Of a stretch of DNA of 64,000 nucleotides, positions 47,795-64,000 are shown piece by piece. The stretch spans positions 62,001-126,000 of the forward strand of contig NZ_JABCQF010000007.1 in NCBI RefSeq assembly GCF_015244705.1, read 5' to 3'. The position numbers and the translations under genes were made by a program. This DNA is from Gluconobacter potus. GTDB lineage: Bacteria > Pseudomonadota > Alphaproteobacteria > Acetobacterales > Acetobacteraceae. The notes under the pieces were generated by a model that made no database searches, was not told the origin of the DNA, and saw nothing but the letters and a program-made list of their open reading frames with translations. Position 1 is the first letter of the stretch; every line of letters starts with the position of its first letter.

Positions 47795-47870
47795 GTTCTC
47801 CCGCCCTGTTCGGGCTATCAAACTGATGGACGGATCAGCATGTTGTTTTGCTTCAGACCGGAGCGAGACT

Positions 47871-49287: not shown

Positions 49288-49431
49288 CTATCGGCCGCGT
49301 GAAACCAATCCGTCGATTTTGTTGGCAAGCGCTGTAATCATGTGCGTGCCCTCATTCGGTTTGTCTGACTTGTCGGCGGCAATATTGAGGCGCTCTTCTT
49401 TATTTTGAAGCTCGGTTATTAACTCGTGCAT
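49288..49431 (-). CDS. possible 47-residue small protein
   Basis: A short frame reads MHELITELQNKEERLNIAAD and ends in ITALANKIDGLVSRGR before a TAG. It is amphipathic and charged like a real helical protein, with an in-frame TGA just upstream limiting its 5' end. A GGAG lies 17 bases before the ATG, too far for an ideal ribosome site. It may be a real small protein or a fragment. Confidence 0.3.
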   Translation of the reverse strand: MHELITELQNKEERLNIAADKSDKPNEGTHMITALANKIDGLVSRGR

Positions 49432-49707
49432 CTCTGAACCAATACCGTCTCCTCATCCTCAACGTCGCTTTCCAAAATCCCATTTTGAGAATCGGACCCT
49501 CCAGCTCAACATGCTTTCAAACATGCAATATCGATGCGCTATCAGCAGTTTCAGGCAAGACAGAAAGCGGCCATTTGAAACAATATTTTCTTCGTATGAA
49601 AGGGGCTGTGCAGGTAGCAGGGACTGAACTATCTGGCTCGAATTCTCATGGATCTGATCTGGCGGGGCGGAAGGGGTCTGCCTGCTGGACGGCTGGATTT
49701 TCTGGAT

Positions 49708-50322
49708 ATGACCTCACCATATGGACCCGGGCTTCGTCACTCGCACGCAGAAGACATCTACGCCTTTCTGATCGGCTGTTCCTTGATTGTTATGGGACTC
49801 ATGTACCTGCACAAGGCCGGGCTCGTGACCGGAGGCGTGGCCGGCATTGCCCTGCTGCTCTCATATGTCGTTCCCATGACCCCCGGGAATCTGTTTACGG
49901 TCATTAACATACCGTTTCTCCTGTTCGCCATTCGCGCTATGGGCGCGCGCTTTGCCATTAAAACGACAATCGCCAGTTTCGGGATTACAGCCCTCGCAGG
50001 TGTCATCCCGAATGTCATGGCACTCTCTTACGTCCACCCCCTGTTCGCCGCGATATTCGGTGGAACCGTCATCGGGATGGGGATTCTCTCCCTTGCACGC
50101 CATCAGGCCGGTGTAGGTGGAACAGGCGTTATCACGCTCTGGCTCCAGAAAAGTCGGGGAATCAATGCAGGCCGCGTTCAGATCATGATTGATACAGCCA
50201 TTCTGACACTGTCCACATTTTTCCTGCCATGGGAAAAAGTCCTGCTGTCAGCCGTAAGCGCCTTTGCAATGAGTGGTGTCCTGATTGTATTCCACCGGCC
50301 TGGGCGCTACATCGGGCATTAA
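49708..50322 (+). CDS. YitT family membrane protein
   Basis: 204 residues from the ATG at 49708; an ATG at 49648 would add 20 residues. About five helices are visible. The first pair carries the family pattern IYAFLIGCSLIVMGLMYLHKAGLVTGGVAGIALLLSYV, followed by GNLFTVINIPFLLFAIRAMG and YVHPLFAAIFGGTVIGMGILSLARHQAGVGGTGVITLWLQ, which match YitT/YczE-type proteins (transport role proposed, unproven). No clear partner genes. A weak hairpin (50410-50435) lies downstream. Confidence 0.8.
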   Translation: MTSPYGPGLRHSHAEDIYAFLIGCSLIVMGLMYLHKAGLVTGGVAGIALLLSYVVPMTPGNLFTVINIPFLLFAIRAMGARFAIKTTIASFGITALAGVIPNVMALSYVHPLFAAIFGGTVIGMGILSLARHQAGVGGTGVITLWLQKSRGINAGRVQIMIDTAILTLSTFFLPWEKVLLSAVSAFAMSGVLIVFHRPGRYIGH

Positions 50323-50559
50323 ACGCAGGCAAATCCATTTCCTTCTGTCAGTTTGCTACGCTCCCGGTATAGGCCCGGACGGCTGGGGGTGAACAACGAG
50401 AAGTGGAACGGAGCAGGACCTCAACCCTCTGCTCCTGGAGTGCCGCCTCAGCACGATATGGAGCCACGCAAAGAGGCCGCCCGCTTTTCTTTTTTTCCTG
50501 ACCGAACCTTGTTTGCCGAGTGGTTTTACAGTGTCTCACCACTTTGACGGGAGCCGACC

Positions 50560-50724
50560 ATGACCGTTGAGAGCAACCAGTTTATTCGCGCATCGTGGAT
50601 CAAGGCCAGTGAATTGCCGAACCCGTGTCCGCCCCGCCCTCCCATTCCGCCAGCACCCAATCCTTATCCTCCGCCGGGTGGTAATCCGCCTCCCATGGAG
50701 GAACCACCCAATCTGGTGAACTGA
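50560..50724 (+). CDS. 54-residue proline-rich small protein
   Basis: ATG at 50560 with GGGAG 6 bases upstream. The product starts MTVESNQFIRASWIKASELP and is then dominated by proline: 18 of 54 residues, in runs such as CPPRPPIPPAP, NPYPPPGG and NPPPMEEPP, ending NLVN. There is one cysteine, and no membrane helix or signal. It lies 78 bases from the tRNA-Val fragment. I know no family. A small secreted, structural or modified-peptide precursor are all open options. Confidence 0.55.
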   Translation: MTVESNQFIRASWIKASELPNPCPPRPPIPPAPNPYPPPGGNPPPMEEPPNLVN

Positions 50725-50801
50725 AAAGGGAGTCTGATGACTTTCGTCACCCTCAGAGCTGGCCAAGCCCACAGACTACCACGATGACGGTCCGGATCGA
50801 G

Positions 50802-50848
50802 TGGTGGGCGCAACAGGGATTGAACCTGTGACCCCTACCATGTCAAGG
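50802..50848 (-). tRNA. 3' fragment of tRNA-Val(GAC), probable attachment site (att) of an integrated element
   Basis: On the minus strand 47 bases match the 3' part of a tRNA: CCTTGACATGG (anticodon loop with GAC), a variable region, T arm ACAGG-TTCAATC-CCTGT, and TGCGCCC-A-CCA. The D arm and the 5' acceptor strand are missing: past position 50848 the sequence no longer pairs with the stems. A 3'-only tRNA copy is the usual scar left by an integrase that targets the 3' end of a tRNA gene. The truncated side faces right, so the element should lie to the right. Confidence 0.8.
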
Positions 50849-51017
50849 GAGGTGGAAATCTCTCAAAATGGCAGTTTTTTACGGTAAAATAGATAGAGAG
50901 CTACGAGACTGCACGGGTTTTGCACTTCACGTCAGCATCCTGCCCAGATTTTCAACATTAAACTGAGCAGGAAGATTCTAGCGACAGGCCTGTAGAGGCA
51001 GTGAAGTGGGCCGGCGT

Positions 51018-51602
51018 TTAAGGATGCATCAGGACATCTTCGGGACTCTCGAGATATCTCCTGACGTGCCTGAAGGCGTCCTGAGCCCCTTGGATACACC
51101 GCGTAGGGTCCAGTTCCGGCGCATGATCAATGGCTTCACGAAACCTGTTCCATGACAGTCCCCGGCCTTCTGGATCTGGGGCGAGGTGTCGGGCACCGAA
51201 GCTTGGTGTAAAGCCGATTTTCTGCGCAAGCTTTATGAGAAAACCGGCTCCGAGCTTGGATCCTTCCCCGACATACAACCATCCGGCTGCCACGGAGGCG
51301 TCCTCCACCGGCAAAAAGGTTGGGTGTGACGGAAGAGGCTCGCCAAGATCGTTCAGGTCTTCCTGAATCAACGAAAAACGGTTTCTGGCCTCAAGACCCG
51401 GAATAATGCCGGCGAGCACCTCATGGCGGTACAGAGGGTCAAGATGCTGGTGAAACCGATACTGCAGGAGCACAAAGTCGCGATAGCCCTTGGTCGTGGC
51501 AAACATGTTCCGCGACATGATGCTCTGATCCAACGTCTCATGTGTTGACGTTGTCGCTTCCTTGAGGCGGCGCGACAGGGGGAGTGTGTTCGTTTCGTTC
51601 AT
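51018..51602 (-). CDS. biliverdin-producing heme oxygenase
   Basis: 194 residues from the ATG at 51602 (MNETNTLPLSRRLKEATTST); the longer frame upstream of it is a shadow. The proximal heme-ligand histidine is His21 in TSTHETLDQ. The distal helix GWLYVGEGSKLGAGFLIK has the Gly-rich kink that sits over heme, as in bacterial HemO-type enzymes. It cleaves heme to biliverdin, CO and iron. Divergent from a heme-type TonB receptor across a Fur-box-like site, so the pair forms a heme-iron module. Confidence 0.88.
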   Translation of the reverse strand: MNETNTLPLSRRLKEATTSTHETLDQSIMSRNMFATTKGYRDFVLLQYRFHQHLDPLYRHEVLAGIIPGLEARNRFSLIQEDLNDLGEPLPSHPTFLPVEDASVAAGWLYVGEGSKLGAGFLIKLAQKIGFTPSFGARHLAPDPEGRGLSWNRFREAIDHAPELDPTRCIQGAQDAFRHVRRYLESPEDVLMHP

Positions 51603-51703
51603 CAGGCTACGGGCCTTTCGATAGTATGCCGCTCTCTGAATGGGAGGGCGCAATGTAAATGCCGATCGATCCGATGTGACCAGAAAAATACACTCGTTTT
51701 GTT

Positions 51704-51722
51704 GCGAACGATAATCATGAGC
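51704..51722. promoter_or_regulatory. Fur-box-like site between heme oxygenase and heme receptor
   Basis: GCGAACGATAATCATGAGC agrees with the 19-base Fur consensus GATAATGATAATCATTATC at 14 positions, including the perfect central GATAATCAT. It lies about 100 bases from both divergent starts, where it could repress both under iron sufficiency. Confidence 0.6.
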
Positions 51723-51808
51723 AACAAGAGCGAATTCCGGTTGACGGGCGCTTTTTAAGGACCTTACATGCGATCGATTCTCATTTGCAATGCCTGAGGT
51801 TTCCCGCA

Positions 51809-54133
51809 ATGCCAAGGTTCTGTCCGCGACCACGTCGCGTCTTTTTTTCCTATATGCTGGCGACCACGGCACTGGCCTGCGCCTGTGTAGCACCTGCCGT
51901 TGCAGCGTCGGTGAATACCGATCCGAAGACGTCCAAATCTGCTGTTTCAGCAACCACGTCCAAAAGCAGCGCGAGTACACCAACGCCTCCACCGGTCTCG
52001 ATTGCCCTGCCGGCCGTGAAGGTGAAGGGGGCTCAGGACATCATTGATTCGATGAAATTCGATCCCGATGCAGATCACAGTTCGGTCGGCATGGCTGGTG
52101 TTCTCACGACAACGACCACTTACAAGACTTTTCGTGACCGGCAGATCGACAGCCTGGAAGATTATTCCCGTCGCGTGGATGCGTCCGTGAATTACAGTGC
52201 CGGGAATTCCAGCATCAACATCCGCGGGCTTGATCAGAACCGCATCCAGACAACCATTGATGGCGTTCGCATGCCCTGGGCGAATGATGGTGCCTATGCC
52301 GGGTCGTTCAGCACCGCGCAGGGTGGTGTCAGCGCCTTCGATTTCAATTCCCTCGGCGCCATTGATGTGGTCAAAAGCGCAGATTCCAGCTTTTTCGGCA
52401 CAGGTGCCCTCGGAGGCGTTATTGCACTCCGGACACTGGATCCGGAAGACATCCTCAAACCGGGAAAGACCTTCGGCGGCATCACGAAGCTGACCTATAA
52501 CGGCTCTGCTGAAGCGGCTCTCCTCGATCAGGCTTTTGCAGCCCGATACAAGAACACGGTTTTCCTGCTCCAGGGTGGCTATCAGAACGGAAGCGAGACA
52601 GGGAACGAAGGAAACATCTACGGTTACGGGCGCACCCGAACCGCTAAAGATCCTGCCAGCTATAGTCAGGGCAGCTTCCTCGGCAAAATCCGTCACTATT
52701 TTGAGGGTGGCCACCGGATCGGTCTGACTGGCGAATGGTTTGATCGCAATTACAATGAACGAACACGGACGTCTGAATCCACTGCTACCGACCATTATAC
52801 GACCAAAAGTGAAAATCAGCGTTCGCGCATCTCAGGCAACTACGATTACCAGGGGGAAACGCCGACTTCGCTTTTCAGCGAGGCTCATCTTCTGGCGTAT
52901 TGGCAGCAGATCAAGACTGATACCGATATTCTCAACAACGATACTGCCAAGGCTTCGACCTATAGCCATGAGCATCTGACGCTGCCGGTGCAGTCCTATG
53001 GCGTGAAAGGTTCAGCCACCAACAATGTCTTCACCGGTCCACTCCATCACGCCATTACCTATGGCGGTGAAGTTTTCCTGACCGATACCTACCAAACCCA
53101 GACCGGCCAGCAGGCGACATCCAGTCCTTATCTGCATGATAATTTCTCGGACATGCCGAAAGTTCATGGCACTGACCTTGGAGCACTGGTGCAGGATCGT
53201 ATCGGTATGGGTGCGAAGGAATGGTTCCATATCACCCCCGGATTCCGTTTCGACTACTTCCAGCGCGATCCTCACAATACTGCTTCCTATCAGGCGAATT
53301 CGGGCTACACCGGCCTGCCGCATGGAGCTCATGGCTCCCACTTTTCTCCCAAAGTCCTCATCGAAGGAAAAGTCACGAAGGATCTGACGCTGTATGCTCT
53401 GTATTCACAGGCCTATCGTGCACCGTCCGCTACAGAAGAATATCTGAATTACAGTACCGCACCCTACTACCAGGTTGTCGGCAATCCCAATCTCAAGCCC
53501 GAAAGCAGCAAAGGTTGGGAAGTTGGTTTGAAGTATGGTGATTCCGAACGTGGCGTCAACGTATCCTTCTACGACAATTATTATAAGAACTATATCGACA
53601 TGGACGGAATTACCGGTTGCTCAGGTTATTACCTCTGCTACGGCTATACCAATCTTTCCCATGTTCGAATCTACGGTACTGAAGCCAATATCCACTGGGC
53701 CTTTGACAAGCACTGGCACACATGGGGGTCCTTTTCCTACACGGATGGACGCGATACCGACATGAACTTCCACCTTGCGTCGGTCGCACCTTTCCGCGGA
53801 ATTATTGGCTTCGGGTACAAGACTGATCGCTGGGGCAGCGATCTGTCAGCCACATTCGCCACGCATCGAAACGACGCTAAATATCTGACCTCTACCGGAA
53901 CACTGACCAGTCAGTGGAAGACACCCGGTTATGTCCTCTTTGACCTTACCGGCTGGTACAGCCCTTCTTTCTATCACGCCCTGCGCATTCAGGCCGGAAT
54001 GTACAACATCTTCAACAAAGCCTATTACAACGCCGCATCACTCCCGTACGGAGCGTCGTCTTCATCTCTGTCCGAACGCTACTACACGCAGCCCGGTCGC
54101 TCCTTCAAAGTCACTGCAAGGATCGACTTCTGA
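51809..54133 (+). CDS. TonB-dependent heme/hemoglobin receptor
   Basis: 774 residues from the ATG at 51809 (TGAGG upstream; the TTG at 51785 is less likely). Signal peptide FFSYMLATTALACACVAPAVAAS. The plug has SLEDYSRRVDASVNYSAGNSSINIRGLDQNRIQTTIDGVR, then SFFGTGALGGVIALRTLDPEDIL, the layout of hemoglobin/transferrin/lactoferrin receptors. The barrel contains YALYSQAYRAPSATEEYLN and NPNLKPESSKGWEVGLKYG (FRAP- and NPNL-type boxes typical of heme receptors) and ends RSFKVTARIDF. The heme oxygenase is divergent. GC is somewhat lower and A-rich codons more common than in the core genes. Confidence 0.9.
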   Translation: MPRFCPRPRRVFFSYMLATTALACACVAPAVAASVNTDPKTSKSAVSATTSKSSASTPTPPPVSIALPAVKVKGAQDIIDSMKFDPDADHSSVGMAGVLTTTTTYKTFRDRQIDSLEDYSRRVDASVNYSAGNSSINIRGLDQNRIQTTIDGVRMPWANDGAYAGSFSTAQGGVSAFDFNSLGAIDVVKSADSSFFGTGALGGVIALRTLDPEDILKPGKTFGGITKLTYNGSAEAALLDQAFAARYKNTVFLLQGGYQNGSETGNEGNIYGYGRTRTAKDPASYSQGSFLGKIRHYFEGGHRIGLTGEWFDRNYNERTRTSESTATDHYTTKSENQRSRISGNYDYQGETPTSLFSEAHLLAYWQQIKTDTDILNNDTAKASTYSHEHLTLPVQSYGVKGSATNNVFTGPLHHAITYGGEVFLTDTYQTQTGQQATSSPYLHDNFSDMPKVHGTDLGALVQDRIGMGAKEWFHITPGFRFDYFQRDPHNTASYQANSGYTGLPHGAHGSHFSPKVLIEGKVTKDLTLYALYSQAYRAPSATEEYLNYSTAPYYQVVGNPNLKPESSKGWEVGLKYGDSERGVNVSFYDNYYKNYIDMDGITGCSGYYLCYGYTNLSHVRIYGTEANIHWAFDKHWHTWGSFSYTDGRDTDMNFHLASVAPFRGIIGFGYKTDRWGSDLSATFATHRNDAKYLTSTGTLTSQWKTPGYVLFDLTGWYSPSFYHALRIQAGMYNIFNKAYYNAASLPYGASSSSLSERYYTQPGRSFKVTARIDF

Positions 54134-54213
54134 AACAGATCAGAAGCTCCAGAAGACAGATAGAGATCCTCTGGAACTAGCTGACTGCTGGTCGATGTTT
54201 TTAGAGTCACTGA

Positions 54214-54249
54214 GGGTATGGGAGTACTTTTCGAAAGTTTCTCATACCC
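54214..54249. terminator. long hairpin between heme receptor and prophage genes
   Basis: GGGTATG...AG pairs with CTCATACCC, with a two-base bulge, and encloses a second stem ACTTT-TCG-AAAGT. It separates the rightward receptor gene from the convergent prophage operon. It has no T-run. Confidence 0.5.
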
Positions 54250-54309
54250 CCTAACTGGAACCCTTCAATTCGATTCCGCGCTCGTCCATCGAATTCACAG
54301 GATTGCGGG

Positions 54310-54420
54310 TCATTTCCTCCGCAGATCCCGCGCCGCGCCGATCATGGCGAGCGTGATTCCCGAGAGCAGAGGCACGAGGATGATAGTCCCGGCGATGAGA
54401 TCATGCAGCACGGACTTCAT
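54310..54420 (-). CDS. 36-residue single-helix phage membrane peptide
   Basis: The frame starts at the ATG at 54420 inside the last codons of the papain-like gene (20 bases of overlap) and reads MKSVLHDLIAGTIILVPLLS, then GITLAMIGAARDLRRK. It has one membrane helix with a basic C-terminus. Last gene of the leftward prophage operon; it is too short for most gene finders. The role is unknown; a small lysis or superinfection factor is possible. Confidence 0.5.
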   Translation of the reverse strand: MKSVLHDLIAGTIILVPLLSGITLAMIGAARDLRRK

Positions 54421-55156
54421 CCAGCAGGGAATCGAATTCTTCCCCGTTCGGGGAACAACCCGGCACCCCCAGCCAGTTCTCGCGTGACAGAAGACCATAG
54501 GCCTCATCGGCGATCGCCGTGAAGGTCGCCCAAGGCATGAAGGTGCGGGCGCCCCAGGTGTTGAAGAACACGCCGTCCGGGTTGTAGCCCACAAGAGCGA
54601 TCGCATGGCCGCCAGCAGGCTTGAGCGCATCGCTGGCAAGCGTATCCAGATCCCACGTCTTACCCAGGCCGAGCGACAGGAAGCCCTGTGGCACCTGCAC
54701 CCCCGCCAGCACCCCACCAAGGAACGCGATGCCGCGCTTGATGCTCATCTCGTCGGTCGGCTGGATGGAGCCGAATGCGGTCAGATAGTCGAGGGTCTGT
54801 CCCGGGCGTTGGAAGCCTGTCTGGCGCCATGCGTTCAGTTCATCCAGCAGCACAGTACCGTAGTCGTTTGTGCCTGTGGCGGGATTGAAGCCGGTGACGG
54901 CAGCATAGTTTTCCAGCACCTGATCGGTTGAGAGGACGACGAGCCCCTGTGCTGCTTTCGTCCAGGTCGCCACCAGCGCGGCGTGGGCAGCGAACGCGCA
55001 ACAGCCATATTTGTCATTGCCCCACATCTGATAGGGCACAGACGCGGACCAGTCGCGGGCGTAGGGTACGGTAGGCAATGCGGCTTCCAGAACAGGCGCA
55101 AGGCGATAAGTGCGATAGTCGTGTTTGGGGTCTTTTTTGCCGAGGCAGCGGGTCAT
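54401..55156 (-). CDS. papain-like cysteine peptidase fold protein (prophage)
   Basis: 251 residues with the papain triad in order: Cys52 or Cys53 in YGCCAFAAHAAL (compare GSCWAF), His184 in GGHAIALVGYN, and Asn199 in FFNTWGARTF (compare NSWG), the His-Asn spacing of 15 being near papain's 16. An N-terminal propeptide-like part is short. No signal peptide. Placed next to a second papain-fold protein with an ATGA overlap. Possible roles are peptidoglycan or host protein cleavage, or a defence-like effector. Not recognised as a named phage family. Confidence 0.72.
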   Translation of the reverse strand: MTRCLGKKDPKHDYRTYRLAPVLEAALPTVPYARDWSASVPYQMWGNDKYGCCAFAAHAALVATWTKAAQGLVVLSTDQVLENYAAVTGFNPATGTNDYGTVLLDELNAWRQTGFQRPGQTLDYLTAFGSIQPTDEMSIKRGIAFLGGVLAGVQVPQGFLSLGLGKTWDLDTLASDALKPAGGHAIALVGYNPDGVFFNTWGARTFMPWATFTAIADEAYGLLSRENWLGVPGCSPNGEEFDSLLDEVRAA

Positions 55157-55698
55157 GCGTTCACCTTTGGGGCCGGGACGTAAATGGGGGCGGTCTGGCC
55201 GAGAAGGCGCGCGCGCATCCGCAAGGGCAGGGCGCTTCCAAGCGCCATATTCTCGACCCGCCCGGCCTGATACAGGTCGTTGAGAAGCTGCTCGCCCGTG
55301 ACCAGGCGCCGGGATGTCGAAAACACGCCAGCAGCTGCGAGCGCGTCGTAAACGTATTCGAAGCAGTAGGCATGGCCGGGCCGCTGAAGAGACTGGATCC
55401 GGAAGGCCCAGGCCGCCATTGCCAGAACGTCGTATGACGTGCCCAGCATGGACTTGCAGTAGGCCTGGGCATGTGCCGCTTCATCGTCCGTCAGGCGGAT
55501 CGTGAAGGCATGCCCGGTCCGGGGTGGCATCCCGAAGGCTGGATCGGTAGGACCCACCCCCACGATCCGCGGGTAGGTGGCCGAATAGATCGTCCCGTCC
55601 AGCTCGATCGTGGCGTGGCTGTAGTCGCTTTCGAGCCGCCAGCAGATCAGGCGGCCGCATGCGTCCGCCGGGTAGTAGAGGCGAACCGTCGCGGTCAT
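55153..55698 (-). CDS. NlpC/P60-like (permuted, YiiX type) phage protein
   Basis: 181 residues from the ATG at 55698, which overlaps the glycosyltransferase stop. It shows the permuted papain-fold pattern: an early His (DYSHATIELDG, His28) and a late Cys (HAYCFEYVYDALAAAG, Cys112 with Glu114), where the typical YiiX/LRAT-type order is His then Cys. Such enzymes act as amidases or acyl-transferases on cell-wall or lipid substrates. Assignment rests on pattern only. It is translationally coupled with both neighbours. Confidence 0.65.
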   Translation of the reverse strand: MTATVRLYYPADACGRLICWRLESDYSHATIELDGTIYSATYPRIVGVGPTDPAFGMPPRTGHAFTIRLTDDEAAHAQAYCKSMLGTSYDVLAMAAWAFRIQSLQRPGHAYCFEYVYDALAAAGVFSTSRRLVTGEQLLNDLYQAGRVENMALGSALPLRMRARLLGQTAPIYVPAPKVNA

Positions 55699-56720
55699 GC
55701 GAACCGCTCCAGCCAGACGCACTCAGAGCGCTGGTTATAATTCACCATATCGCGCCGCTGGCGATGCAGCCGATACGAACGGGCCACGTCACTTTCTGCC
55801 CAGATTTTCATCAGAAGGGCCGCAATGCCCTTGCTCGATGTCGGATCTGCAAAGGCATACTCCCCGAGCCACGGGAATTCGCTTGAGGCGACAACAGGCA
55901 CGGAAGACGCCATGGCGTCGGCCGCCACGATGTTGAATGTTTCGGTGAAGGATACCTGCATGCAGATATCCATCGTGGCCATCAGGCGCAGGAAATCCGC
56001 GTGTTCCTGCCAGCCATGCTCGACCAGTTCATGCCGCGACGCAGCGAACACTTCCCGCAGGTTCTTGAGGACCGGACTGCCGTTCCCTTCAACCCGCGTG
56101 GCATTGACGTGGAAGCGCAGGGATAGGCCAGCCGCATCAGCAAAAGCCATGGCGGCAATCGCCTGAACCATGTGGTTCTTGAGCGGACGGATAGCACCGA
56201 AACAGCCGATATCGATCACATCGGACGGCATGGGCTTGGCGCTGATTTCGCCTCCGGATGGGGTGGGGTAATAGTTCGGCCCATACGTGACAAGCGTCTC
56301 CGGATGAGCGCATGCCGATGCGACAACCTGCATGTCACCGACTGCTCGGGGCGCATTGCACATGACCTCTACGCCACGGGCCAGATATGCCGCCGTCCAG
56401 CCAAACGCGATGCCCTCATTGGCGAGGAAAGGCGTTTCGGAATGATCGCGCACAATCCAGCGGACGCGCGGATGAAGGGCTTTCAGAACGTTGAATTTCT
56501 CTGGCACGACCCAGAATGCCTCGACAATGACATGTGTCGGACGATAGGCCGTCACTTCCCGGTCGATGCAGTTGTTGTCCTGCACTTCGACCGCTTTGGC
56601 CTCGATCCCATGGCTGGTGAGCATGTCCACGACAAAGCGCACCGAATTGGCCAGGCCGGAGGAACCGGAGGCATAGCCCCAGTTTCCCTCGCGGCTTTTC
56701 AGGATGAAGAGCAGGCGCAT
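55695..56720 (-). CDS. GT-B glycosyltransferase (prophage)
   Basis: 341 residues. Family-4/1-like features: MRLLFILKSREGNWGYASGSSGLANSVRFVVDML at the N-terminus (loops for nucleotide-sugar), IGCFGAIRPLKNHMVQAIAAM in the second domain, and the donor-site E-x7-D motif SFTETFNIVAADAMASSVPVVAS. No signal or membrane helix, so it acts in the cytoplasm. In temperate phages such enzymes often modify host lipopolysaccharide or phage DNA, changing phage receptors. Its start is one base from the lipoprotein stop (TGATG). Confidence 0.78.
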   Translation of the reverse strand: MRLLFILKSREGNWGYASGSSGLANSVRFVVDMLTSHGIEAKAVEVQDNNCIDREVTAYRPTHVIVEAFWVVPEKFNVLKALHPRVRWIVRDHSETPFLANEGIAFGWTAAYLARGVEVMCNAPRAVGDMQVVASACAHPETLVTYGPNYYPTPSGGEISAKPMPSDVIDIGCFGAIRPLKNHMVQAIAAMAFADAAGLSLRFHVNATRVEGNGSPVLKNLREVFAASRHELVEHGWQEHADFLRLMATMDICMQVSFTETFNIVAADAMASSVPVVASSEFPWLGEYAFADPTSSKGIAALLMKIWAESDVARSYRLHRQRRDMVNYNQRSECVWLERFA

Positions 56721-57295
56721 CAGGCCGCCACCTTCAGGATGCGGAGAGCCTGAGCTTCCGTCATGGCCGGTTCAGACATGGAGACGACGCCGAGGATGCC
56801 TTCGAAAACGGATACGATGGTCTTGAGTGCAGACAGGGCCGTATTCGCGTCGGACAGGACGGAACTGGATACCGTGCTGCTCGCGCCTGTGATGGCCGAA
56901 GACAGATCGGCAGCGACCGTCTGAAGATCTGCCAGGACCGAGTTGATCGCGCTCTTCATGGTCGTGTCGTCGTAGTTGACCGTCACGCTCGATCCCGCAG
57001 CGGTTGAGAAAGCGCTCAGGGCAGCCGAAAGGGCTACCGATGCCGTCTCGATCACAGCGACAGCCGGTGCACCGATCGCCGAAGCTACCGCAGCGATGGA
57101 CAGGACCGTCGAGACCGCGTTGATGCCAGCCTGACCGTAAGCCTTCACTTTGGCGACGTTGACCGTGATGGTCGTGACGTTGCCGGACTTCGTGACAGTG
57201 CAGGCGCCAAGCATGCCGATTGCGGAGCCGGCAAGAATTGTCCCGAGGAAACCGCGGCGCGTCTGACGCGCAGTGAGGGAATTCAGATCAGTCAC
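56720..57295 (-). CDS. Tat-signal lipoprotein, Ala/Ser/Thr-rich (prophage)
   Basis: 191 residues from a GTG at 57295 with GGAGG 5 bases upstream. The first residues are VTDLNSLTARQTRRGFLGTI, a twin-Arg signal followed by a lipobox (MLGAC near residue 32). The mature part is Ala/Ser/Val-rich and helical, without Trp, similar to coat-like or superinfection-type exported phage proteins of unknown role. The ORF continues upstream to 57355 but that start lies in the terminator hairpin. An intrinsic terminator lies directly before its ribosome site. Confidence 0.65.
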   Translation of the reverse strand: MTDLNSLTARQTRRGFLGTILAGSAIGMLGACTVTKSGNVTTITVNVAKVKAYGQAGINAVSTVLSIAAVASAIGAPAVAVIETASVALSAALSAFSTAAGSSVTVNYDDTTMKSAINSVLADLQTVAADLSSAITGASSTVSSSVLSDANTALSALKTIVSVFEGILGVVSMSEPAMTEAQALRILKVAA

Positions 57296-57314
57296 AGAGG
57301 CCTCCAATAAAAAA

Positions 57315-57332
57315 ACCGCCCCGGAGGGCGGT
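57315..57332 (-). terminator. intrinsic terminator fused to the next ribosome-binding site (prophage)
   Basis: Read leftward, ACCGCCC-TCCG-GGGCGGT forms a 7-bp stem, then TTTTTTT and ATTGGAGG, the ribosome site of the lipoprotein gene. The same stem-T-run-TTGGAGG layout recurs at 60027-60046. Confidence 0.85.
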
Positions 57333-57417
57333 TGGAACAGGTCATTCATTGGCATCCCCGATCAGGGGAGCATGCTTCTAGAAAAAGAAAATCGCGCGCA
57401 CCTAAGAGAAAGCCGCG

Positions 57418-57738
57418 TCAACCAGATACTTTTGGTGGTTCACCCGATTTCGGATGTGTAGAAGCCGGATCGAGACCCAGCCTGGCGGCCTCAACGGCGC
57501 GGCTGGCGTCGGCAGGGATCATCAGGGCCTTGGCGTCGGGCTGATAGGCGTTGGTGTTCCAGCCTCTGGACTGCGCCAGGGCGGACACGGCCTTGTAGAG
57601 CAGCGCCATCCTGCTGCTGGCAGCAGGTGGCTTCCAGAAGCGCATGGCCAGAGCGGCCGCCGCGATCAGGAAGGTGAGGATCGAGACCAGATCCCCCGCA
57701 TACTGCGCCGGCAGATATGGCAGGATCGTCTGGAACAG
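57418..57738 (-). CDS. holin-like phage membrane protein lacking a canonical start codon
   Basis: 106 residues if a CTG at 57738 is used. The frame reads LFQTILPYLPAQYAGDLVSI, then a membrane helix (LTFLIAAAALAM), MRFWKPP, and a C-terminal soluble part (LYKAVSALAQSRGWNTNAYQPDAKALMIPAD) ending in a Pro-rich tail. No ATG, GTG or TTG precedes MRFW back to the in-frame TAA. The first ATG (57645) would cut the helix. The tail gene upstream runs into this one out of frame, as if a small deletion fused the two. Holin role inferred from size, helix and lysozyme neighbour. Confidence 0.5.
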   Translation of the reverse strand: MFQTILPYLPAQYAGDLVSILTFLIAAAALAMRFWKPPAASSRMALLYKAVSALAQSRGWNTNAYQPDAKALMIPADASRAVEAARLGLDPASTHPKSGEPPKVSG

Positions 57739-59108
57739 GGAGTTCCATTTTGCGTAAGCGCTCCGGAGAGCGTCATGTTGCCACTGTTATCAATGGAAAA
57801 AAGCCGGGTATTTCCGGACGAATAAACGAGCTTTGTGCCATCATATTCGACGCACTTATCTGAGCTGGCGAAGCAAATTTCCTGCTCTGGTGCAGCAGTA
57901 AATGCGATCTTCGTATTTGTCGCATTTGCGGTGGTGATTGCAGCAGTCGTGTATGATCCAGACGCATTTAAAGCTGCAGCTGATGTTGACTGATCTTGAT
58001 AAGCCGACATCCCGGTATGCGTGCCCTGAACCGAGAAGACATTGGTCGGAGAGCTCGTATTGACGATGACATCCCCCACCGACGAAGAACCGTTGATAAC
58101 AATTTTGGCGACCGACGTACTGCTGACAATGTTGAGGTTCGAGCTGGTGGATGGTCCGGTCAGGAGCACATCGTGCTGACCTGCGCTTTCAGAGAAAATG
58201 CCCGCGACCGAGTGACTTCCAGCCGAATGGTATCCGTAGACGCCGCCACCTTCAGACATGATGTCATTGTCGCTTGCCACATCGGCGGTGCCTCCATTAG
58301 CCTTGCCCCCGATGAAAATGCCATCATGATAAGATGCAACGGTCTGGCCCGAGGACGCACCGAAGAAAATCCCAGCCAGGCTGGTAAAGCGCGACGTGGT
58401 GTTCAGAAATTCATTAACAATGAAGCACCCGTCTTGCCCATTACAGTCAAGATCGGCGTTGTTTAAGTCTCCCTCAGCGCCGATAGTGGACATATTGGCG
58501 GCCATACCACCCGCCGCGTTCATTGTACCAGAACCGGGCTGCCCATATAGCGTATTACTACCCGTAGATGGACTGAAATTTCGAGAAATATTCCAGTTAA
58601 TTCCCCATCCTGGGCCGCTCTGCGTGTCCTGCATCGCACCGAAATACGCGGCCATCTTCGCACCGGGAGCTGCAATTCCGCCGGTAGCTGAATCACGTCC
58701 AGTATTCATGTAGAGGCCGAAGTACCCCTGATATTCCCACTGCGGACCTAACGTCGTAGAGCCATAGGACGAAAACGCCGTCATCACCGGCCCGCCAGCA
58801 CCTTCAGTCGTCGGGCACGACGCTACGGGGCAGGTTGGAATGGATGGGTTGGCAGGAATGCTGATTTCCGTGGCAGATATTACGGCGTTACGGAGGGTCT
58901 GTCCTAGAGACTGACCGTTTATGGCATCAACTTTTGGCCCAATAGCTGCAGCGACAGCCGGAGACGATACGATGTCTGATGGGTTTCCGGTCGCCATATA
59001 CGATTTCCATGCTGGCATCGTATTGACAGGAAAGGTTTGAGCTTGTGCAGGGGGCGTAAAAAGTATGACGCCTCCACAAGCCAAAAGCACCGAAGGAAAG
59101 AGTTTCAT
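57666..59108 (-). CDS. putative tail fibre/spike protein with Sec signal peptide (prophage)
   Basis: 480 residues from the ATG at 59108 (GGAA upstream; longer frames overlap the lysozyme gene). It begins with a clear Sec signal MKLFPSVLLACGGVILFTPP and AQAQ. The remainder is Ser/Thr/Gly-rich beta-type sequence, with VNGSSSVGDVIVNTSS and a final FSIDNSGNMTLSGALTQNG repeat-like unit typical of fibre shafts. The last 25 residues, from GTPCSRRSCHICRR, are basic, unlike the rest, and read through the holin-like gene out of frame: probably a frameshifted end. An exported or surface protein is likely. Confidence 0.6.
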   Translation of the reverse strand: MKLFPSVLLACGGVILFTPPAQAQTFPVNTMPAWKSYMATGNPSDIVSSPAVAAAIGPKVDAINGQSLGQTLRNAVISATEISIPANPSIPTCPVASCPTTEGAGGPVMTAFSSYGSTTLGPQWEYQGYFGLYMNTGRDSATGGIAAPGAKMAAYFGAMQDTQSGPGWGINWNISRNFSPSTGSNTLYGQPGSGTMNAAGGMAANMSTIGAEGDLNNADLDCNGQDGCFIVNEFLNTTSRFTSLAGIFFGASSGQTVASYHDGIFIGGKANGGTADVASDNDIMSEGGGVYGYHSAGSHSVAGIFSESAGQHDVLLTGPSTSSNLNIVSSTSVAKIVINGSSSVGDVIVNTSSPTNVFSVQGTHTGMSAYQDQSTSAAALNASGSYTTAAITTANATNTKIAFTAAPEQEICFASSDKCVEYDGTKLVYSSGNTRLFSIDNSGNMTLSGALTQNGTPCSRRSCHICRRSMRGIWSRSSPS

Positions 59109-59130
59109 CTGCCATTTCCTGATGGATTGG

Positions 59131-59610
59131 TTACGCCGCGATGGCGGCTTGGAAATCAGGGATATTCGCCAGAGCGCAGGCCGAACCGAGCGGGGAATTG
59201 TACCAGCGCTTGTGGTACTGTGCTTGACCGGCCGCATCATCAGCCGCAGGGATCGGTTCAGGGGCCAGAAGGATCTTCGTGGCGCACATGGCCGCGCCGT
59301 AAAGCGGCAAGGTGATCATCAGATCGGCTGCGTGCGGTTGACCAGAGAGCAACTGGTTCAGGCCCGATGCGATCCTTGAGCGGGATGGTGCCGGAAGGGA
59401 GTTCTTCCAGATGTCGTCATGGGTGGCCGGCTCCATCTGCCAGAAGCCTTTGGCCGGGCCACCGTTGAGTTGCTCCAGCCAGACATAGCCGCTCTCGACC
59501 AGGCCGATACCGGTGACGATGTTGAGATGTGCCGGGTCGTCCAGACCAATCGCCTGGAGTGCCGGCCGGATCCACAGACGCTTGATCTGTGAGAGGTTCA
59601 GGCCGGCCAT
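59131..59610 (-). CDS. phage lysozyme/lytic transglycosylase-like endolysin
   Basis: 159 residues. The catalytic Glu is probably Glu39 in IVTGIGLVESGYVWLEQL, followed by the SLT-like GPAKGFWQMEPATHDDIW. A long middle loop and C-terminal YHKRWYNSPLGSA complete the fold. No signal peptide, so release depends on a holin. Its start overlaps the stop of the coiled-coil gene by one base, and the tail-type gene follows after 22 bases. It cleaves peptidoglycan during lysis. Confidence 0.75.
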   Translation of the reverse strand: MAGLNLSQIKRLWIRPALQAIGLDDPAHLNIVTGIGLVESGYVWLEQLNGGPAKGFWQMEPATHDDIWKNSLPAPSRSRIASGLNQLLSGQPHAADLMITLPLYGAAMCATKILLAPEPIPAADDAAGQAQYHKRWYNSPLGSACALANIPDFQAAIAA

Positions 59611-60008
59611 TACAGGTGAGCTTTCAGATAGGCCCCGATCGCGATCAGGGCCGCCAGAATGTAGGGACCGAAGGTCGCAGCCACCCAGAACATGGTTTTC
59701 TGGGACTTGTCGCGTTCGGCCCGCTCGTCCTGCGCGGCATCGAGCTTCTTTTCGATCGTTTTCAGAGAGGCATTGGTATCCGTCATGGTCTGCATGACGT
59801 TGGCAATCTGGGTCTTGATGTCCTGAATCGTCGCCCGGAGAGACTGAACTTCCGTCTTCATTTCCTGCCGGAACTCATCATGCCGGTCTTCGACCTTGGA
59901 CAAGGCCGTCTCAAGCGTCAGGATACGATCTTCAGCAGCCCGCAGGCTCTCTTCTGCGGTGCGCAGACGCTCACGCAATTCTGCGCTACCGGCAGTTTCA
60001 TCGGGCAT
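59610..60008 (-). CDS. coiled-coil protein with C-terminal TM helix, XhlA-like lysis accessory (prophage)
   Basis: 132 residues from the ATG at 60008 with GGAGG upstream. Residues about 8-95 form a continuous heptad coiled coil (LRERLRTAEESLRAAEDRIL and further), followed by a single membrane helix (FWVAATFGPYILAALIAIGAYL) and a short basic tail. This layout is typical of XhlA-type and spanin-accessory phage lysis proteins. Being ahead of the lysozyme gene supports the role. Confidence 0.65.
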   Translation of the reverse strand: MPDETAGSAELRERLRTAEESLRAAEDRILTLETALSKVEDRHDEFRQEMKTEVQSLRATIQDIKTQIANVMQTMTDTNASLKTIEKKLDAAQDERAERDKSQKTMFWVAATFGPYILAALIAIGAYLKAHL

Positions 60009-60026
60009 GCGGCCCTCCAATAAAAA

Positions 60027-60046
60027 AGCCGCCTCAGAGGGCGGCT
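60027..60046 (-). terminator. intrinsic terminator directly before the coiled-coil gene (prophage)
   Basis: AGCCGCC-CTCTGA-GGCGGCT (7-bp stem) is followed leftward by a T-run and ATTGGAGG, the ribosome site of the coiled-coil gene. It lies between the fibre gene and the lysis genes. Confidence 0.85.
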
Positions 60047-60070
60047 GTGACAGTCAGATAGTCAGACGGA

Positions 60071-62608
60071 TCAGTTCGCTGCCACTACACCATCATCAGA
60101 CCGCCAGGTTCCAGCGCTATCCTTGAAAACCCACCGACCGGTTCCGGCGCCTGATGCTTGTCCTGAATTCAGGCAATCGCGACACCAAAGGCGGGCAGAT
60201 TCCTCGAAAGAACTTGTGCTGGACGTGATGGACAAGAGGATACGGCCCGTATCGATGGAATCTGCGCCTTCGGAGTGGAGCATTCCCCCGGCCCCGATGG
60301 TAATATCGCCACCGAACGTAGCGGCTCCGCTGGTGCTTACGCTGCCCGCACTGACCACACCGGTAGTCGAGACCGAGCCGCCCGATATTTTCCCGGCCGC
60401 GGTTACGGTAGCGCCGGATACGTCTGCTGTCGCTGCAAGGGATTTCCCGGAGACCGCACCCGTACTTGTCAGCGAAGAACTGTTAATGGCTCCTGCCGAA
60501 ACCGCGCCGGAGATATTGACGGTTCCGTCCCCGTTTACCCGGAGACCACAGGTCGTCGCGTAGCCGCAGAGTGAAATACTGCCGTAGTTGGCGCCGACGT
60601 TCCACTCGATATCGCCCTGCTTGGAGCCGCCCGGATCCCCATCCGCCGGAATGGCGCCATCTACAGTCGGCCCCAAATGGGTCACGACCCGCTGCCAGCC
60701 ATCTGCGGCCGATGGGTTCCCGCTATCGTTCCACAGCACCATCTGGAATTGGTTCTTCGTCCCAACGCCAACAGGCATCTGCCAAATCTGGTAACTTTGT
60801 GTCGGGTTGTCCGTGGTGAGTTGCTGCTGCTTCAGTGAGGGCACAAAGATGTTGTCGCCATCGATCAGCCAGTTCCCGATACCACCGTCAAAGACGATGT
60901 GATGCGGGATATCGCCCCCGAAAAGATACTCGTAGCTGTCTGTCGTGAGCGCTGCGGGCTGGTTTCCCGCGTTCATCGAATGGCCTTGAAAATAGATGGA
61001 GTTTGCAGGAGCAGTCCCATTAACTACGGTCGGTCCATCCTCTTCATCCATCGTAAACTGGTGGATCAACGACTTGTTCGTGGCGCTCGGGATGAGGTCA
61101 CGGGCATCGATGATGGCGTACCAGTTGTTTGCGAACGCACTGGATGCGGCTCCGCCTCCGATAAACACGACAGGTGACGTATATTTGCTCCAGACGGTAT
61201 CGAGCGTTGTCGTCTGCGGAACCTGTCCCGATGCCCCCGTTCCCCATGATGGGACATCCCACCCCCAAACAGCGATAGTCGTATCACCCGCCGCGGGTGC
61301 CGTTTTCACGACTGCCGCATAAAGGTTCCGTTTCGGAAGAGTGCCCGCAGTATTCGTCAGAGACAGCGCAGGATTGGGGCTGTTCGTTGTGACATACATG
61401 CTCGGGTGGATCTGCGCGGCCTGAGAAGCCGTCAGTGGTGCTTGCAGAACGATTGACGTAGCGGTGTAGGACGCAACCGGAAGGACGAGCCGGGCTTGCT
61501 GATTGCCGAACAGAATGCAGTGGGCCGCCGTGTCAAATCCACCCATCGCAACGATCGATGTTGCGCCGCCTTCGGGGGGCTGTTCGGAGATTGGGTTTCG
61601 GGACGTATAAACCGAACCAAGCATATTCAGCGCATAACCACAGCCTGCGGAATATGGTCCGTATGGATCAGTCTGTTGTAAAACTTGCCGCTGCATGTAA
61701 GTTCCATCTGCGTACTGTCTCCACCCACCGATCAAGTCGGCCTCGTAACCCCTCGCCGGGTCGAACCCGCCAGCGAAGGTATCGGAAAGATAATTCGCAA
61801 AAGCGTCTGCACCTGCGATCATTTTACCTGTCAGCAGGTTTGCCGTCACATTCCCGTTCGCATCCAGTCCTGCCACGCCTGACGGAACGCCCTTCTGAGA
61901 GCTCGGAATCAGTTCGGATGACAGGTTCACCGGAGCCGTCGTCAATGTCGCCACAACCGTAGCAACCGAACCAGCAGACAGGGAGCTGCCGGACGGGGTG
62001 GCGGCCGGAGCCGTCTGATACCCCCAGCCGCCAAGCGTCACACCTGCTCCCGCCAGTCCCCAGCCGAGGCTGAATTCTGGCGGCGTGCATCCCGACGTTG
62101 TGGATGTCAGGGTCACGGGATTGGCTGGCACATCTGCCGCCGACCCGGCCGTCCCGCCGACCGAAACGGTGACGACAGATCCGGACAGCCCGTTCCCATC
62201 CGAGACAATGATTTTCGTGCCGGTGCCGGCCAGCGTGAACACGCTTGAGGCCGGACAGGCATTGCCGGCCGCCGTTACCGTTGCTGACGTGACCGTATAG
62301 CCAGAGGGGACGATCTGGGCTGTCTGTCCCAGAGCGTTGCCGGCAGTCGTGAGCGTCAGCGGCAGATCGGCCGGGGCATAGGCGCCTGGCTCTGTCACGG
62401 TGACCGCACTGACATGCCCGGAATACAGGGATGGCGGGTTCAGCGGAGCTCCGATCCGGCCCGCGCCGTCGAAGAGCGGCAGACTGGACGGCGTCGTGGT
62501 CGATCCATCGAGCGCGTGCCCTGTTCCCGGAACGACAAAGGGCGCAGCGCGGGCCGCACCTGACAGGACGAGTGCCAGCACTGCGCCGATGGTGGAGAAT
62601 GTCTTCAT
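60071..62608 (-). CDS. large tail fibre-like protein with Sec signal peptide (prophage)
   Basis: 845 residues. Signal MKTFSTIGAVLALVLSGAARA precedes a low-complexity Gly/Ser/Thr/Ala-rich protein. The C-terminal 150 residues hold short repeats (VSAGAINSSSLTSTGAVSG, ISGGSVSTTGVVSAGSVSTSG) and a fibre-tip-like end RWVFKDSAGTWRSDDGVVAAN. The middle has LIGGWRQYADGTYMQRQV and YFQGHSMNAGNQPAAL. Host-recognition fibre or spike is likely, and the Sec signal is unusual for an intracellularly assembled tail. Four-base overlap with the upstream gene. Confidence 0.6.
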   Translation of the reverse strand: MKTFSTIGAVLALVLSGAARAAPFVVPGTGHALDGSTTTPSSLPLFDGAGRIGAPLNPPSLYSGHVSAVTVTEPGAYAPADLPLTLTTAGNALGQTAQIVPSGYTVTSATVTAAGNACPASSVFTLAGTGTKIIVSDGNGLSGSVVTVSVGGTAGSAADVPANPVTLTSTTSGCTPPEFSLGWGLAGAGVTLGGWGYQTAPAATPSGSSLSAGSVATVVATLTTAPVNLSSELIPSSQKGVPSGVAGLDANGNVTANLLTGKMIAGADAFANYLSDTFAGGFDPARGYEADLIGGWRQYADGTYMQRQVLQQTDPYGPYSAGCGYALNMLGSVYTSRNPISEQPPEGGATSIVAMGGFDTAAHCILFGNQQARLVLPVASYTATSIVLQAPLTASQAAQIHPSMYVTTNSPNPALSLTNTAGTLPKRNLYAAVVKTAPAAGDTTIAVWGWDVPSWGTGASGQVPQTTTLDTVWSKYTSPVVFIGGGAASSAFANNWYAIIDARDLIPSATNKSLIHQFTMDEEDGPTVVNGTAPANSIYFQGHSMNAGNQPAALTTDSYEYLFGGDIPHHIVFDGGIGNWLIDGDNIFVPSLKQQQLTTDNPTQSYQIWQMPVGVGTKNQFQMVLWNDSGNPSAADGWQRVVTHLGPTVDGAIPADGDPGGSKQGDIEWNVGANYGSISLCGYATTCGLRVNGDGTVNISGAVSAGAINSSSLTSTGAVSGKSLAATADVSGATVTAAGKISGGSVSTTGVVSAGSVSTSGAATFGGDITIGAGGMLHSEGADSIDTGRILLSITSSTSSFEESARLWCRDCLNSGQASGAGTGRWVFKDSAGTWRSDDGVVAAN

Positions 62609-63021
62609 GTTCCAGCGCTCACAATCGAGGGGGTCGGCACCCCGTTATTGTTCCAGTAGGTATTGCCGCCGGTTCCGGGATCGCTCGTCGGGAGCGACGC
62701 AATCCATCCGTCATAGGATTTCCCCTGCGCTGCCGGCGTGAGGATCACACCACTTTCTGTTCCGGTGATCGGGCTGTAGGACAGAACACCAGCGTCCAGG
62801 AACCAGCCACCACCCTCCGGCGCCGCGGTCGGAAGCGTTGGCCCGATCCGGGTCAGTCCGAGCGCCAGGATCGAAGATGCAAAATTCCCGGCCGTGATGT
62901 TGCATGGCGCATAGCCCGTGAGAGTGCCCTGGACATCCGTAACGGGCCGAAGGAAGACGAGCAGATCCGTCGCCTGCACGCTGGTCTGCGTGAGAGCTGG
63001 ATCAGATGCGAGTTGTGGCAT
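62605..63021 (-). CDS. phage protein of unknown function, probable tail-associated
   Basis: 138 residues, beginning MPQLASDPALTQTSVQATDL and ending YWNNNGVPTPSIVSAGT. Gly/Thr/Pro-rich with no membrane helix or signal. The C-terminal GGTAGTGG-like content resembles short fibre-adaptor proteins. It lies between tail-type genes and shares four bases with the next gene, so a tail role is inferred from context. Confidence 0.55.
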   Translation of the reverse strand: MPQLASDPALTQTSVQATDLLVFLRPVTDVQGTLTGYAPCNITAGNFASSILALGLTRIGPTLPTAAPEGGGWFLDAGVLSYSPITGTESGVILTPAAQGKSYDGWIASLPTSDPGTGGNTYWNNNGVPTPSIVSAGT

Positions 63022-63025
63022 TGGC

Positions 63026-63472
63026 TTACCCGAAGATCAGGGGGGTTCCGGAGGCGTCAGGCACAATGGCCGCACCGAGAAGAAAGGCGTTGGGCGCATA
63101 GGCGGGAACAGCCGGGGTGATCAGGGACGGCGCAGGACGAACCACGATCGAAACCGAGGTATCCAGGGTTACGTCGAACGATGTCCGGACCGAGATCATG
63201 ACCTGCTGCGGACCAGAGGCACTCCACTGGGTCCAGAGCGCCACGACGGGACCGAACATGCTCACCCAGGCGATCGATGCTCCGTCGCACTGCGCTTCGG
63301 CGGCGACAATCCGCTCACCACGATCCAGCAGCCCTGAGAAATCAACGCCATAATCCGCACCTGAGCCCAATGCCGCATTGGGCCAGCAGAGCAGAAGCGG
63401 CGCGTTGATCCCGCGAACCCGGAATGCGGGTGGCACGTCCGCACGCACGATGCGCCGGCAGGGTGTGTGCAT
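63026..63472 (-). CDS. phage protein of unknown function, tail-associated by context
   Basis: 148 residues from the ATG at 63472, which overlaps the stop of the upstream gene; the longer frame to 63862 is a shadow. Mixed beta-type sequence (WVSMFGPVVALWTQWSASGP, then SFDVTLDTSVSIVVRPAPS). I do not recognise a family. It is coupled with the glycine-rich protein upstream and precedes the small tail-like gene by a few bases. Confidence 0.55.
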   Translation of the reverse strand: MHTPCRRIVRADVPPAFRVRGINAPLLLCWPNAALGSGADYGVDFSGLLDRGERIVAAEAQCDGASIAWVSMFGPVVALWTQWSASGPQQVMISVRTSFDVTLDTSVSIVVRPAPSLITPAVPAYAPNAFLLGAAIVPDASGTPLIFG

Positions 63473-64000
63473 CAGGAATATTCCCAGATCCGGATCAGGC
63501 CCGAAGCGCCCGTCCCCCCGGTCGTGGCGCCGAGCTGACTTCCAGATGCCCCTGAGCCAGAACCATATCCACGGGGCGCATCGGTGGTGATCGCTGTGCT
63601 CGTCGTATTGACGGAGTTGTTGCCACCCGTCCCGAAAGGACTGTTTGCGCCCAGGGCCGGGAGAGGCAGGCCGGGATTGGAGCCGTTCGGGACGAGCAGG
63701 CTGTTCATGCCGTTCGCACCCTGGACTGCGTCCAGAACAGTCAGGCCCGTGGCTGCGGCGACCACTGTGGCCCCACCCCCGGACTGGGATGTCCACCCAC
63801 CGGCGCTCGGAGCAGTTGACGTTCCGGCAGTTCCACCTGATCCGCCTCCCGCAGTAAGCCATCCGCCGAACAGGGTGTTACCGCCGGTGCCACCGCTCGC
63901 CCCCTCAGCTCCGACGCCTCCCGCGCCGATCGTCAGGGGAACCGCTGAAAGAGTGATCTTGGACAGATCAAACAGGGCACGGATAAACGCCCCGGCTGCT
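63472..64000 (-). CDS. glycine-rich phage tail protein, 5' end beyond the window
   Basis: The frame is open from the right edge to the TGA at 63472, at least 176 residues. It is strongly Gly/Ser/Thr-rich: GAGGVGAEGASGGTGGNTLF, further GGG repeats, and an end GLIRIWEYS. Phage receptor-binding adhesins with polyglycine helices have this composition and a short C-terminal cap. It belongs to the tail part of the late operon. Confidence 0.65.
   Translation of the reverse strand, partial: AAGAFIRALFDLSKITLSAVPLTIGAGGVGAEGASGGTGGNTLFGGWLTAGGGSGGTAGTSTAPSAGGWTSQSGGGATVVAAATGLTVLDAVQGANGMNSLLVPNGSNPGLPLPALGANSPFGTGGNNSVNTTSTAITTDAPRGYGSGSGASGSQLGATTGGTGASGLIRIWEYS

Follow-up and report, generated by a model that had tools for sequence, protein, structure and literature searches.

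Toxins, serotype change and phage exclusion are the classic examples of lysogenic conversion. From acetic acid bacteria, temperate myovirus-type phages have been described (phiAP1, phiAO1 and others; PMC8566455), and the words heme, iron and TonB are absent from the main text of that report as well as from the available text of a report on Acetobacter prophages (PMC9379143). Here, we analysed a 64-kb stretch of the draft genome of Gluconobacter potus (3.42 Mb in 67 contigs), positions 62001 to 126000 of contig C7 and hereafter the window, in which a truncated tRNA gene, two heme genes and phage late genes follow one another. The best explanation, to which we assign a probability of about 0.8, is a temperate myovirus-type prophage of ~54.5 kb at the 3′ end of tRNA-Val(GAC), with a heme oxygenase and a heme receptor as cargo (a moron) in a variable slot. 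Like phiAP1, as described in the main text of that report, it would be a temperate phage of acetic acid bacteria that integrates at a tRNA gene 3′ end, the difference being that phiAP1 uses tRNA-Ser (PMC8566455); its capsid protein shares 60% identity with a protein of phiAO1. Genomes, contigs and loci are given below as G, C and L numbers, with G000 for the present genome, G017 for Gluconobacter sp. P1C6_b and G016 for Gluconobacter sp. Dm-62.

The left border of the element consists of two features:

50798 to 50848, minus strand: attachment core, the tRNA-Val(GAC) 3′ part (50802 to 50848) plus 4 bases, with an exact copy in the intact tRNA-Val(GAC) at C11:17131
50849 to 50925, no strand assigned: phage attachment arm (AAAATGGCAGTTTT, then TGCACGGGTTTTGCAC), with a similar arm beside the scar in heme-less prophages of the same integrase family

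An earlier note on this DNA had described a 47-base tRNA-Val(GAC) remnant that lacks the D arm and the 5′ strand, and the alignment bears this out. Positions 50802 to 50848 (minus strand) are identical to the 3′ part, from the anticodon stem-loop to the CCA, of the intact gene at C11:17131-17205, and the exact identity reaches 51 bases (50798 to 50848), i.e. 4 beyond the tRNA part. Because the 47-base exact match ends at the CCA end of the tRNA, the scar is not a product of chance; a chance tRNA-like stretch was considered and is ruled out by the exact 51-base match. One intact tRNA-Val(GAC) and one 3′ fragment form the direct repeat pattern of tRNA integration. ARAGORN called zero tRNAs in the 64-kb window, in agreement with the claim that no intact tRNA-Val lies to the left within it. 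The note had also expected an intact tRNA-Val(GAC) with the same 47 bases next to an integrase gene further to the right; we found this gene, on another contig (C11), since C7 ends at 150151. The broken side of the scar points right, to the heme oxygenase, the heme/hemoglobin receptor and phage late genes, as had been proposed and as gene positions and profile matches agree.

On this broken side, the arm is composed of an A-rich box with GGCAGTTTT and the repeat TGCACGGGTTTTGCAC. G002, G005, G015, G007 and G018 carry prophages in which a similar arm, with few bases changed, adjoins the scar; their integrases are 83-93% identical to the one of this prophage, and an integrase of this type is present in 8 of 12 other genomes in which the tRNA flank was examined at the protein level (tblastn with prophage proteins, best non-overlapping matches, query coverage below 30% dropped). 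As the arm lies between the scar and the heme oxygenase, the heme pair lies inside the phage's own end, and G017 has it at the same place. The observation that started this work is thus confirmed, and its reading as a tRNA-scar prophage with a heme module is supported.

The heme module comprises the following features:

51018 to 51602, minus strand: heme oxygenase of the HemO/PigA type (PF01126, 68.6 bits)
51704 to 51722, plus strand: Fur-like box in the divergent promoter region, 14 of 19 positions matching the consensus
51785 to 54133, plus strand: TonB-dependent heme/hemoglobin receptor of the hmuR type (TIGR01785 375.6 bits, TIGR01786 405.5 bits)
54134 to 54329, no strand assigned: right junction between heme module and phage late region, with a hairpin at ~54214-54249

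The heme oxygenase matched HemO (5e-38) and pa-HO (2e-33) in the PDB, and searches against NCBIfam and PHROG gave no match. The conserved proximal histidine in its TTSTHETLD motif, which we take to be the heme ligand, aligns with that of TTAVHDSVD in HemO. The receptor, which has an alternative in-frame ATG at 51809, exceeds the curated cut-offs of both TIGR01785 and TIGR01786, and its nearest solved structure is PhuR (8e-50). Judging from these similarities, the receptor would transport heme and the oxygenase would degrade it in the cell. Both genes are under purifying selection between G000 and G017, with a dN/dS of 0.03 for the receptor and 0.16 for the oxygenase (0.23 with the longer frame). 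The Fur-like box is conserved in G017 and G016; its score of 14 was reached in 18 of 2000 random 198-base stretches of the window. The hairpin at the right junction has a folding energy of -20.1 kcal/mol (z -2.0) on the plus strand and -18.9 kcal/mol (z -2.8) on the minus strand.

Is the heme pair a fixed part of this phage family? Among 26 genomes of the genus including its own, only G017 also has the pair at this site, in the same order of scar, heme oxygenase (90% identity), receptor (98%) and late genes, and with phage genes beside it. In G002, G005, G015 and G007, the slot between the last late gene homologue and the attachment site contains ~2.6-3.4 kb of other genes, namely umuC and umuD homologues in G015 (L102 13654-15290), a fibre-like protein in G005 and unknown proteins in G007 and G002, and the heme pair is absent from all four slots as read. 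In G018, where the slot itself was not seen, genome-wide searches gave no such heme pair. By eye, umuC/umuD-like open reading frames (ORFs) also follow the same late gene in the IMG/VR record L202 (11897-13533), in which no attachment core was found.

A close relative of the late end is the IMG/VR phage 2724679584_000003 (tblastn, best non-overlapping matches, query coverage below 20% dropped), in which 4 of the 7 compared late proteins are 96-98% identical and the remaining ones 65-91%. The similarity starts at window position 54329 and covers only parts of the prophage. This phage lacks heme genes and a match to the integrase of our prophage, and by eye it has an integrase-like ORF of another type; the prophage integrase had no match in three IMG/VR records, which carries little weight because the records may be fragments. 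On the other side, sequence resembling the chromosomal locus of G016 extends from 51054 to 54133 (nucleotide comparison with relatives, pieces below 45 bases dropped), and together these two limits delineate a heme module at ~51.0-54.3 kb. The pair is thus absent at that place in otherwise similar phages, as is characteristic of a moron. A remnant of hmuT after the receptor stop was considered and rejected, its best match having an E value of 0.64 and the G016 similarity stopping at 54133.

To the right of the module lie genes of the late operon:

54401 to 55156, minus strand: final phage late gene, bordering the cargo slot (phrog_19005), with homologues in the prophages of G002, G005, G015, G007 and G017
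55153 to 57355, minus strand: phage late genes (phrog_1128-like and others), by profile matches and homologues in related prophages
55695 to 56720, minus strand: glycosyltransferase within these late genes
56720 to 57355, minus strand: late gene within the same group
59131 to 60020, minus strand: phage late genes (phrog_3108, and a coiled-coil protein that matches weakly)
60071 to 62608, minus strand: large protein, called tail-fibre-like from its place and composition, without a match in PHROG or Pfam
62605 to 64000, minus strand: additional late genes of an operon that goes on beyond the window on C7

The tail-fibre-like protein is 96% identical to a protein of the IMG/VR phage 2724679584_000003. 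Right of the scar, C7 encodes tape measure, tail sheath, neck, major capsid, protease, head morphogenesis, portal and terminase genes, with tail sheath, capsid, portal and terminase within C7:131000-150151, and all 10 phage proteins tested lie on the minus strand, toward the contig end at 150151. The phage part of C11 begins with DnaB and regulatory genes, among them a gene at C11:5609-6283 that is CI-like only weakly (HTH_31 and Peptidase_S24, both below the Pfam cut-offs), and ends with a tyrosine integrase (PF00589) 191 bp before the intact tRNA-Val(GAC). Integration at a tRNA 3′ end is also common to islands and integrative and conjugative elements (ICEs). The strong PHROG matches of terminase, portal, capsid, tail sheath and tape measure reject an island without phage genes, and if the contig join is right, such an element is refuted as a description of the whole; we give it almost no weight. 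The prophage would run from scar and arm through heme oxygenase and receptor, late genes, head and packaging genes, and replication and repressor genes to the integrase and the intact tRNA, with 37,350 bases on C7 and 17,130 on C11. That such a phage is active is a prediction from its gene content.

The site without the element is seen in G001. Here, host sequence matching the window to 47795 is followed after ~150 bases by an intact tRNA-Val(GAC) and then by a hutG-like gene, the same gene that follows the tRNA on C11, and between the end of the host gene and the tRNA there are neither phage nor heme genes. The note had anticipated an uninterrupted locus in an element-free strain and heme genes absent from it, and both were found, together with the sharing of the pair by G017 only, where phage genes accompany it. 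The junction itself was predicted wrongly, as it is position 47795, and not 50801, that is joined to the far side. Indeed, in G017 and G020 the scar follows ~20 bases past the end of the same host gene. The scar holds as the left border, with an extra insert, unseen earlier, between it and the native host sequence:

47796 to 50797, no strand assigned: extra insert of ~3 kb, from the host GntP-type gene to the tRNA scar, absent in G001 and G017
47871 to 48464, minus strand: ORF in the extra insert, no Pfam match
49648 to 50322, plus strand: YitT-family gene in the extra insert (Pfam YitT_membrane)
50560 to 50724, plus strand: ORF of 54 amino acids in the extra insert, no Pfam match

According to these relatives, native host sequence ends at 47795 (47795 and 47805 in the comparisons with G001 and G017), and we take 47796-50797 as a separate insertion outside the prophage as G017 defines it. 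A second core copy was looked for at its outer end and none was found. The left part of the insert is low in G+C. In G008, G022 and G007, relatives of the YitT-family gene are found no more than ~0.7 kb from tRNA-Val-like matches.

Scars of this tRNA-Val are also occupied by a second element family with a different arm (AAAACCGGCTGACCCC and alike), at L092 (G013), L093 (G016), L105 (G025) and L091 (G024), which makes this tRNA an integration hotspot in the genus. In G005 (L099/L100), G015 (L101/L102) and G007 (L103/L104), prophages related to ours sit at tRNA-Val in reversed orientation, with the integrase next to the scar and the late genes next to the intact tRNA; their integrases are 83-86% identical to this one and the arm beside the scar is similar. 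In G000 itself, a degenerate tRNA-Val(CAC) scar lies at C8:3863-3900, ~10.6 kb from the intact gene at 14471-14545, and tblastn with the prophage integrase against C8:1-20000 gave zero matches.

Could the heme pair then be a host (island) module next to the tRNA, with the left end of the prophage to its right and the scar stemming from an older event? A hotspot used by at least two element families, with an extra 3-kb insert next to the scar, would allow for it, and the synonymous divergence of the pair is host-like, unlike that of the late genes (see below). What makes this improbable to us is the position of the phage arm and its repeats, between the scar and the heme oxygenase, the lack of a second core copy between receptor and late gene (the 47-base core has four matches genome-wide, none of them there), the phage-free G001 without heme genes at the site, and the other genes found in the same place between late gene and attachment site in G002, G005, G015 and G007.

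The relation to G017 bears on the age of the module. Synonymous divergence between G000 and G017 is 0.22-0.37 for seven host genes and 0.29 and 0.32 for the heme pair; the integrase stands at 0.49, an anti-repressor-like gene at 0.39 and four late genes at 0.73-0.84. The simplest reading would be a shared old lysogen that retained its heme edge through an exchange of late genes; alternatively, there may have been independent transfers of similar age. The same numbers, i.e. a heme pair evolving at host rate under purifying selection next to late genes far more diverged from G017, would also suit a defective, domesticated prophage in which the heme pair is the living part, retained by the host as phage genes are gained and lost. 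So would the DNA likeness of 89-96% to another phage, which is confined to parts of the late end and gives way to little similarity over most of the remainder. We still regard this as rather unlikely, given that the examined late, head, packaging, DnaB and integrase genes have open frames and strong family matches.

Where did the heme pair come from? Close receptors are found in 18 named loci, including the prophage copy of P1C6_b; the oxygenase adjoins the receptor in 17 of them and hmuTUV homologues lie next to it in 15 (tblastn, best non-overlapping matches, query coverage below 35% dropped). In a receptor tree of 24 rows, which omitted loci L158, L160 and L167, the two prophage copies group as sisters (support 93/89, slightly below the star of the tool), followed by Gluconobacter sp. 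Dm-62 and then Acetobacter oeni, and all eight chromosomal receptors of other Gluconobacter in it form a separate clade. From this tree and the chromosomal loci, the pair appears to have originated in an hmuO/hmuRTUV locus of a different lineage of acetic acid bacteria. At L039 7184-9657, beside the chromosomal heme locus of Dm-62, we noticed part of a transposase gene and a protein with 29% identity to the tail-fibre-like protein, which hints at a way for heme genes and phage genes to have come together.

A scan of the family detected a receptor at E<=1e-100 in 22 of 397 genomes, and only in G000 and G017 among these 22 is it next to the phage late gene. This late gene was found in none of 19 further receptor loci with flanks of ~1.5 kb (tblastn, best non-overlapping matches, query coverage below 20% dropped), nor at the loci of G015 and G022. 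Among 50,697 phage records, the heme oxygenase had two matches at 40%, both named 'Acinetobacter phage MD-2021a', and the receptor a single partial match at 24%; MD-2021a was dropped as a precedent, since the neighbourhood of one of the two records looks chromosomal. In a plasmid collection, 40 records matched the heme oxygenase, all below 60% identity, and of 14 IMG/VR stretches matched by a pattern scan for receptor relatives, none was confirmed.

A receptor without a transporter raises the question of its partner in the host. On C11, G000 has a chromosomal hmu locus with an ABM-domain protein, HmuT, HmuU, HmuV and a second ABM-domain protein, both ABM-domain proteins being HmuQ-like and below the NCBIfam cut-off. 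In G017, G001, G018 and G020, hmuR stands divergently beside this locus. G000 remains syntenic with G017 by blastn to either side of this place, with hmuR (2.35 kb) replaced by ~0.94 kb containing a shortened copy of a multi-copy insertion sequence (IS). A permease of the hmuU type (at least 61% identity) is present in 14 genomes of the genus, with a receptor, counted when matched by the prophage receptor as query, within 2 kb in 13; G000 is the one without. Its HmuTUV frames are open, with a dN/dS of 0.09-0.19 against G017. With hmuR gone beside hmuTUV, the prophage receptor probably serves the HmuTUV transporter of the host.

We propose the following path. The heme pair, a moron whose variable slot is flanked by the last late gene and the attachment site, diverges around a conserved Fur-like box, an arrangement through which it could be expressed in a silent lysogen when iron is short; such regulation by iron is a prediction from the box. 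Heme would cross the outer membrane by means of the receptor and enter the cytoplasm through the chromosomal HmuTUV, where its iron would be freed by the phage heme oxygenase together with the HmuQ-like proteins of the host. The further idea that the host has handed a step of heme uptake over to the prophage, with an edge module persisting at host rate while the phage body is exchanged and the phage receptor feeding HmuTUV after the loss of hmuR to an IS, is one we put forward tentatively, as a possibility that we favour less than its opposite.

Several observations weigh against the prophage with its heme cargo or against its role in the host. C7 and C11 are unjoined in the assembly and their ends do not overlap. 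As the last 200 bases of C7 also occur only once in the genome, which rules out a repeat at this contig end, we infer the join, and do so from the gene order in G002, G018 and G015, where homologues of the early genes of C11 lie near those of the packaging end of C7 in the expected order. In a scan for promoters and terminators, promoter-like sites (2 found, 2.8 expected) do not exceed chance, and terminator-like sites number 5, with 3.0 expected. From its host-like divergence, the pair may be an old resident that was not brought by the present phage body. In 4 of the 13 genomes with a receptor near the permease (G009, G019, G003 and G021), the receptor match is weak (27-36%). Another TonB receptor gene, present in G017 too, lies ~2.6 kb beyond hmuU and scores 61.5 bits with TIGR01785, under the cut-off. 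Finally, a second receptor on C14 scores 402.5 bits with TIGR01785, compared with 375.6 for that of the prophage, so that host heme uptake may proceed independently of the prophage, whose receptor may not be the only heme receptor of the host. This C14 receptor is over the cut-off of TIGR01785 and under that of TIGR01786, and lies in a methanobactin-type cluster with MbnB, MbnP and MbnH families (L149 5083-11004), neighbours that point to copper, although this receptor may also take up heme. By eye, this cluster adjoins a recombinase-like ORF (2822-4087).

With a heme receptor and a heme oxygenase carried as cargo in an acetic acid bacterium, lysogenic conversion would come to include nutrient uptake. 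A phage receptor combined with a host transporter without its own receptor would offer a directly testable case of host dependence on a prophage, and the slot at the attachment edge, filled with the heme pair, umuDC or other genes within one phage family, a natural comparison of slot contents. A moron for heme uptake, and a host locus that has kept hmuTUV with hmuR replaced by an IS remnant, is what is new here. The opinion of the note that such a pair is rarely reported in acetic acid bacteria fits our search of the open-access literature, in which a prophage-borne heme receptor with heme oxygenase was not found in titles and abstract starts, subscription journals being mostly outside its reach.

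In summary, the module is closest to the chromosomal hmuO/hmuRTUV loci of Acetobacter, Komagataeibacter and Gluconobacter sp. Dm-62, with which it shares the divergent oxygenase and receptor; receptor identity is 93% to Dm-62 and 69-85% to 16 other non-prophage named loci, and both prophage copies lack the hmuTUV homologues that 15 of the 18 named loci have at this place. The heme oxygenases of aquatic phages reportedly serve pigment synthesis in photosynthetic hosts. Prophages of Acinetobacter baumannii are similar in that a TonB-dependent receptor is among their transporter genes, although the word heme is absent from the main text on these iron genes (PMC6193963). A phage-borne heme oxygenase is likewise shared with aquatic phages carrying tetrapyrrole genes (the term occurs 12 times in the available text of PMC11480375), whereas the heme oxygenase described here is of the HemO/PigA type and is paired with a receptor.

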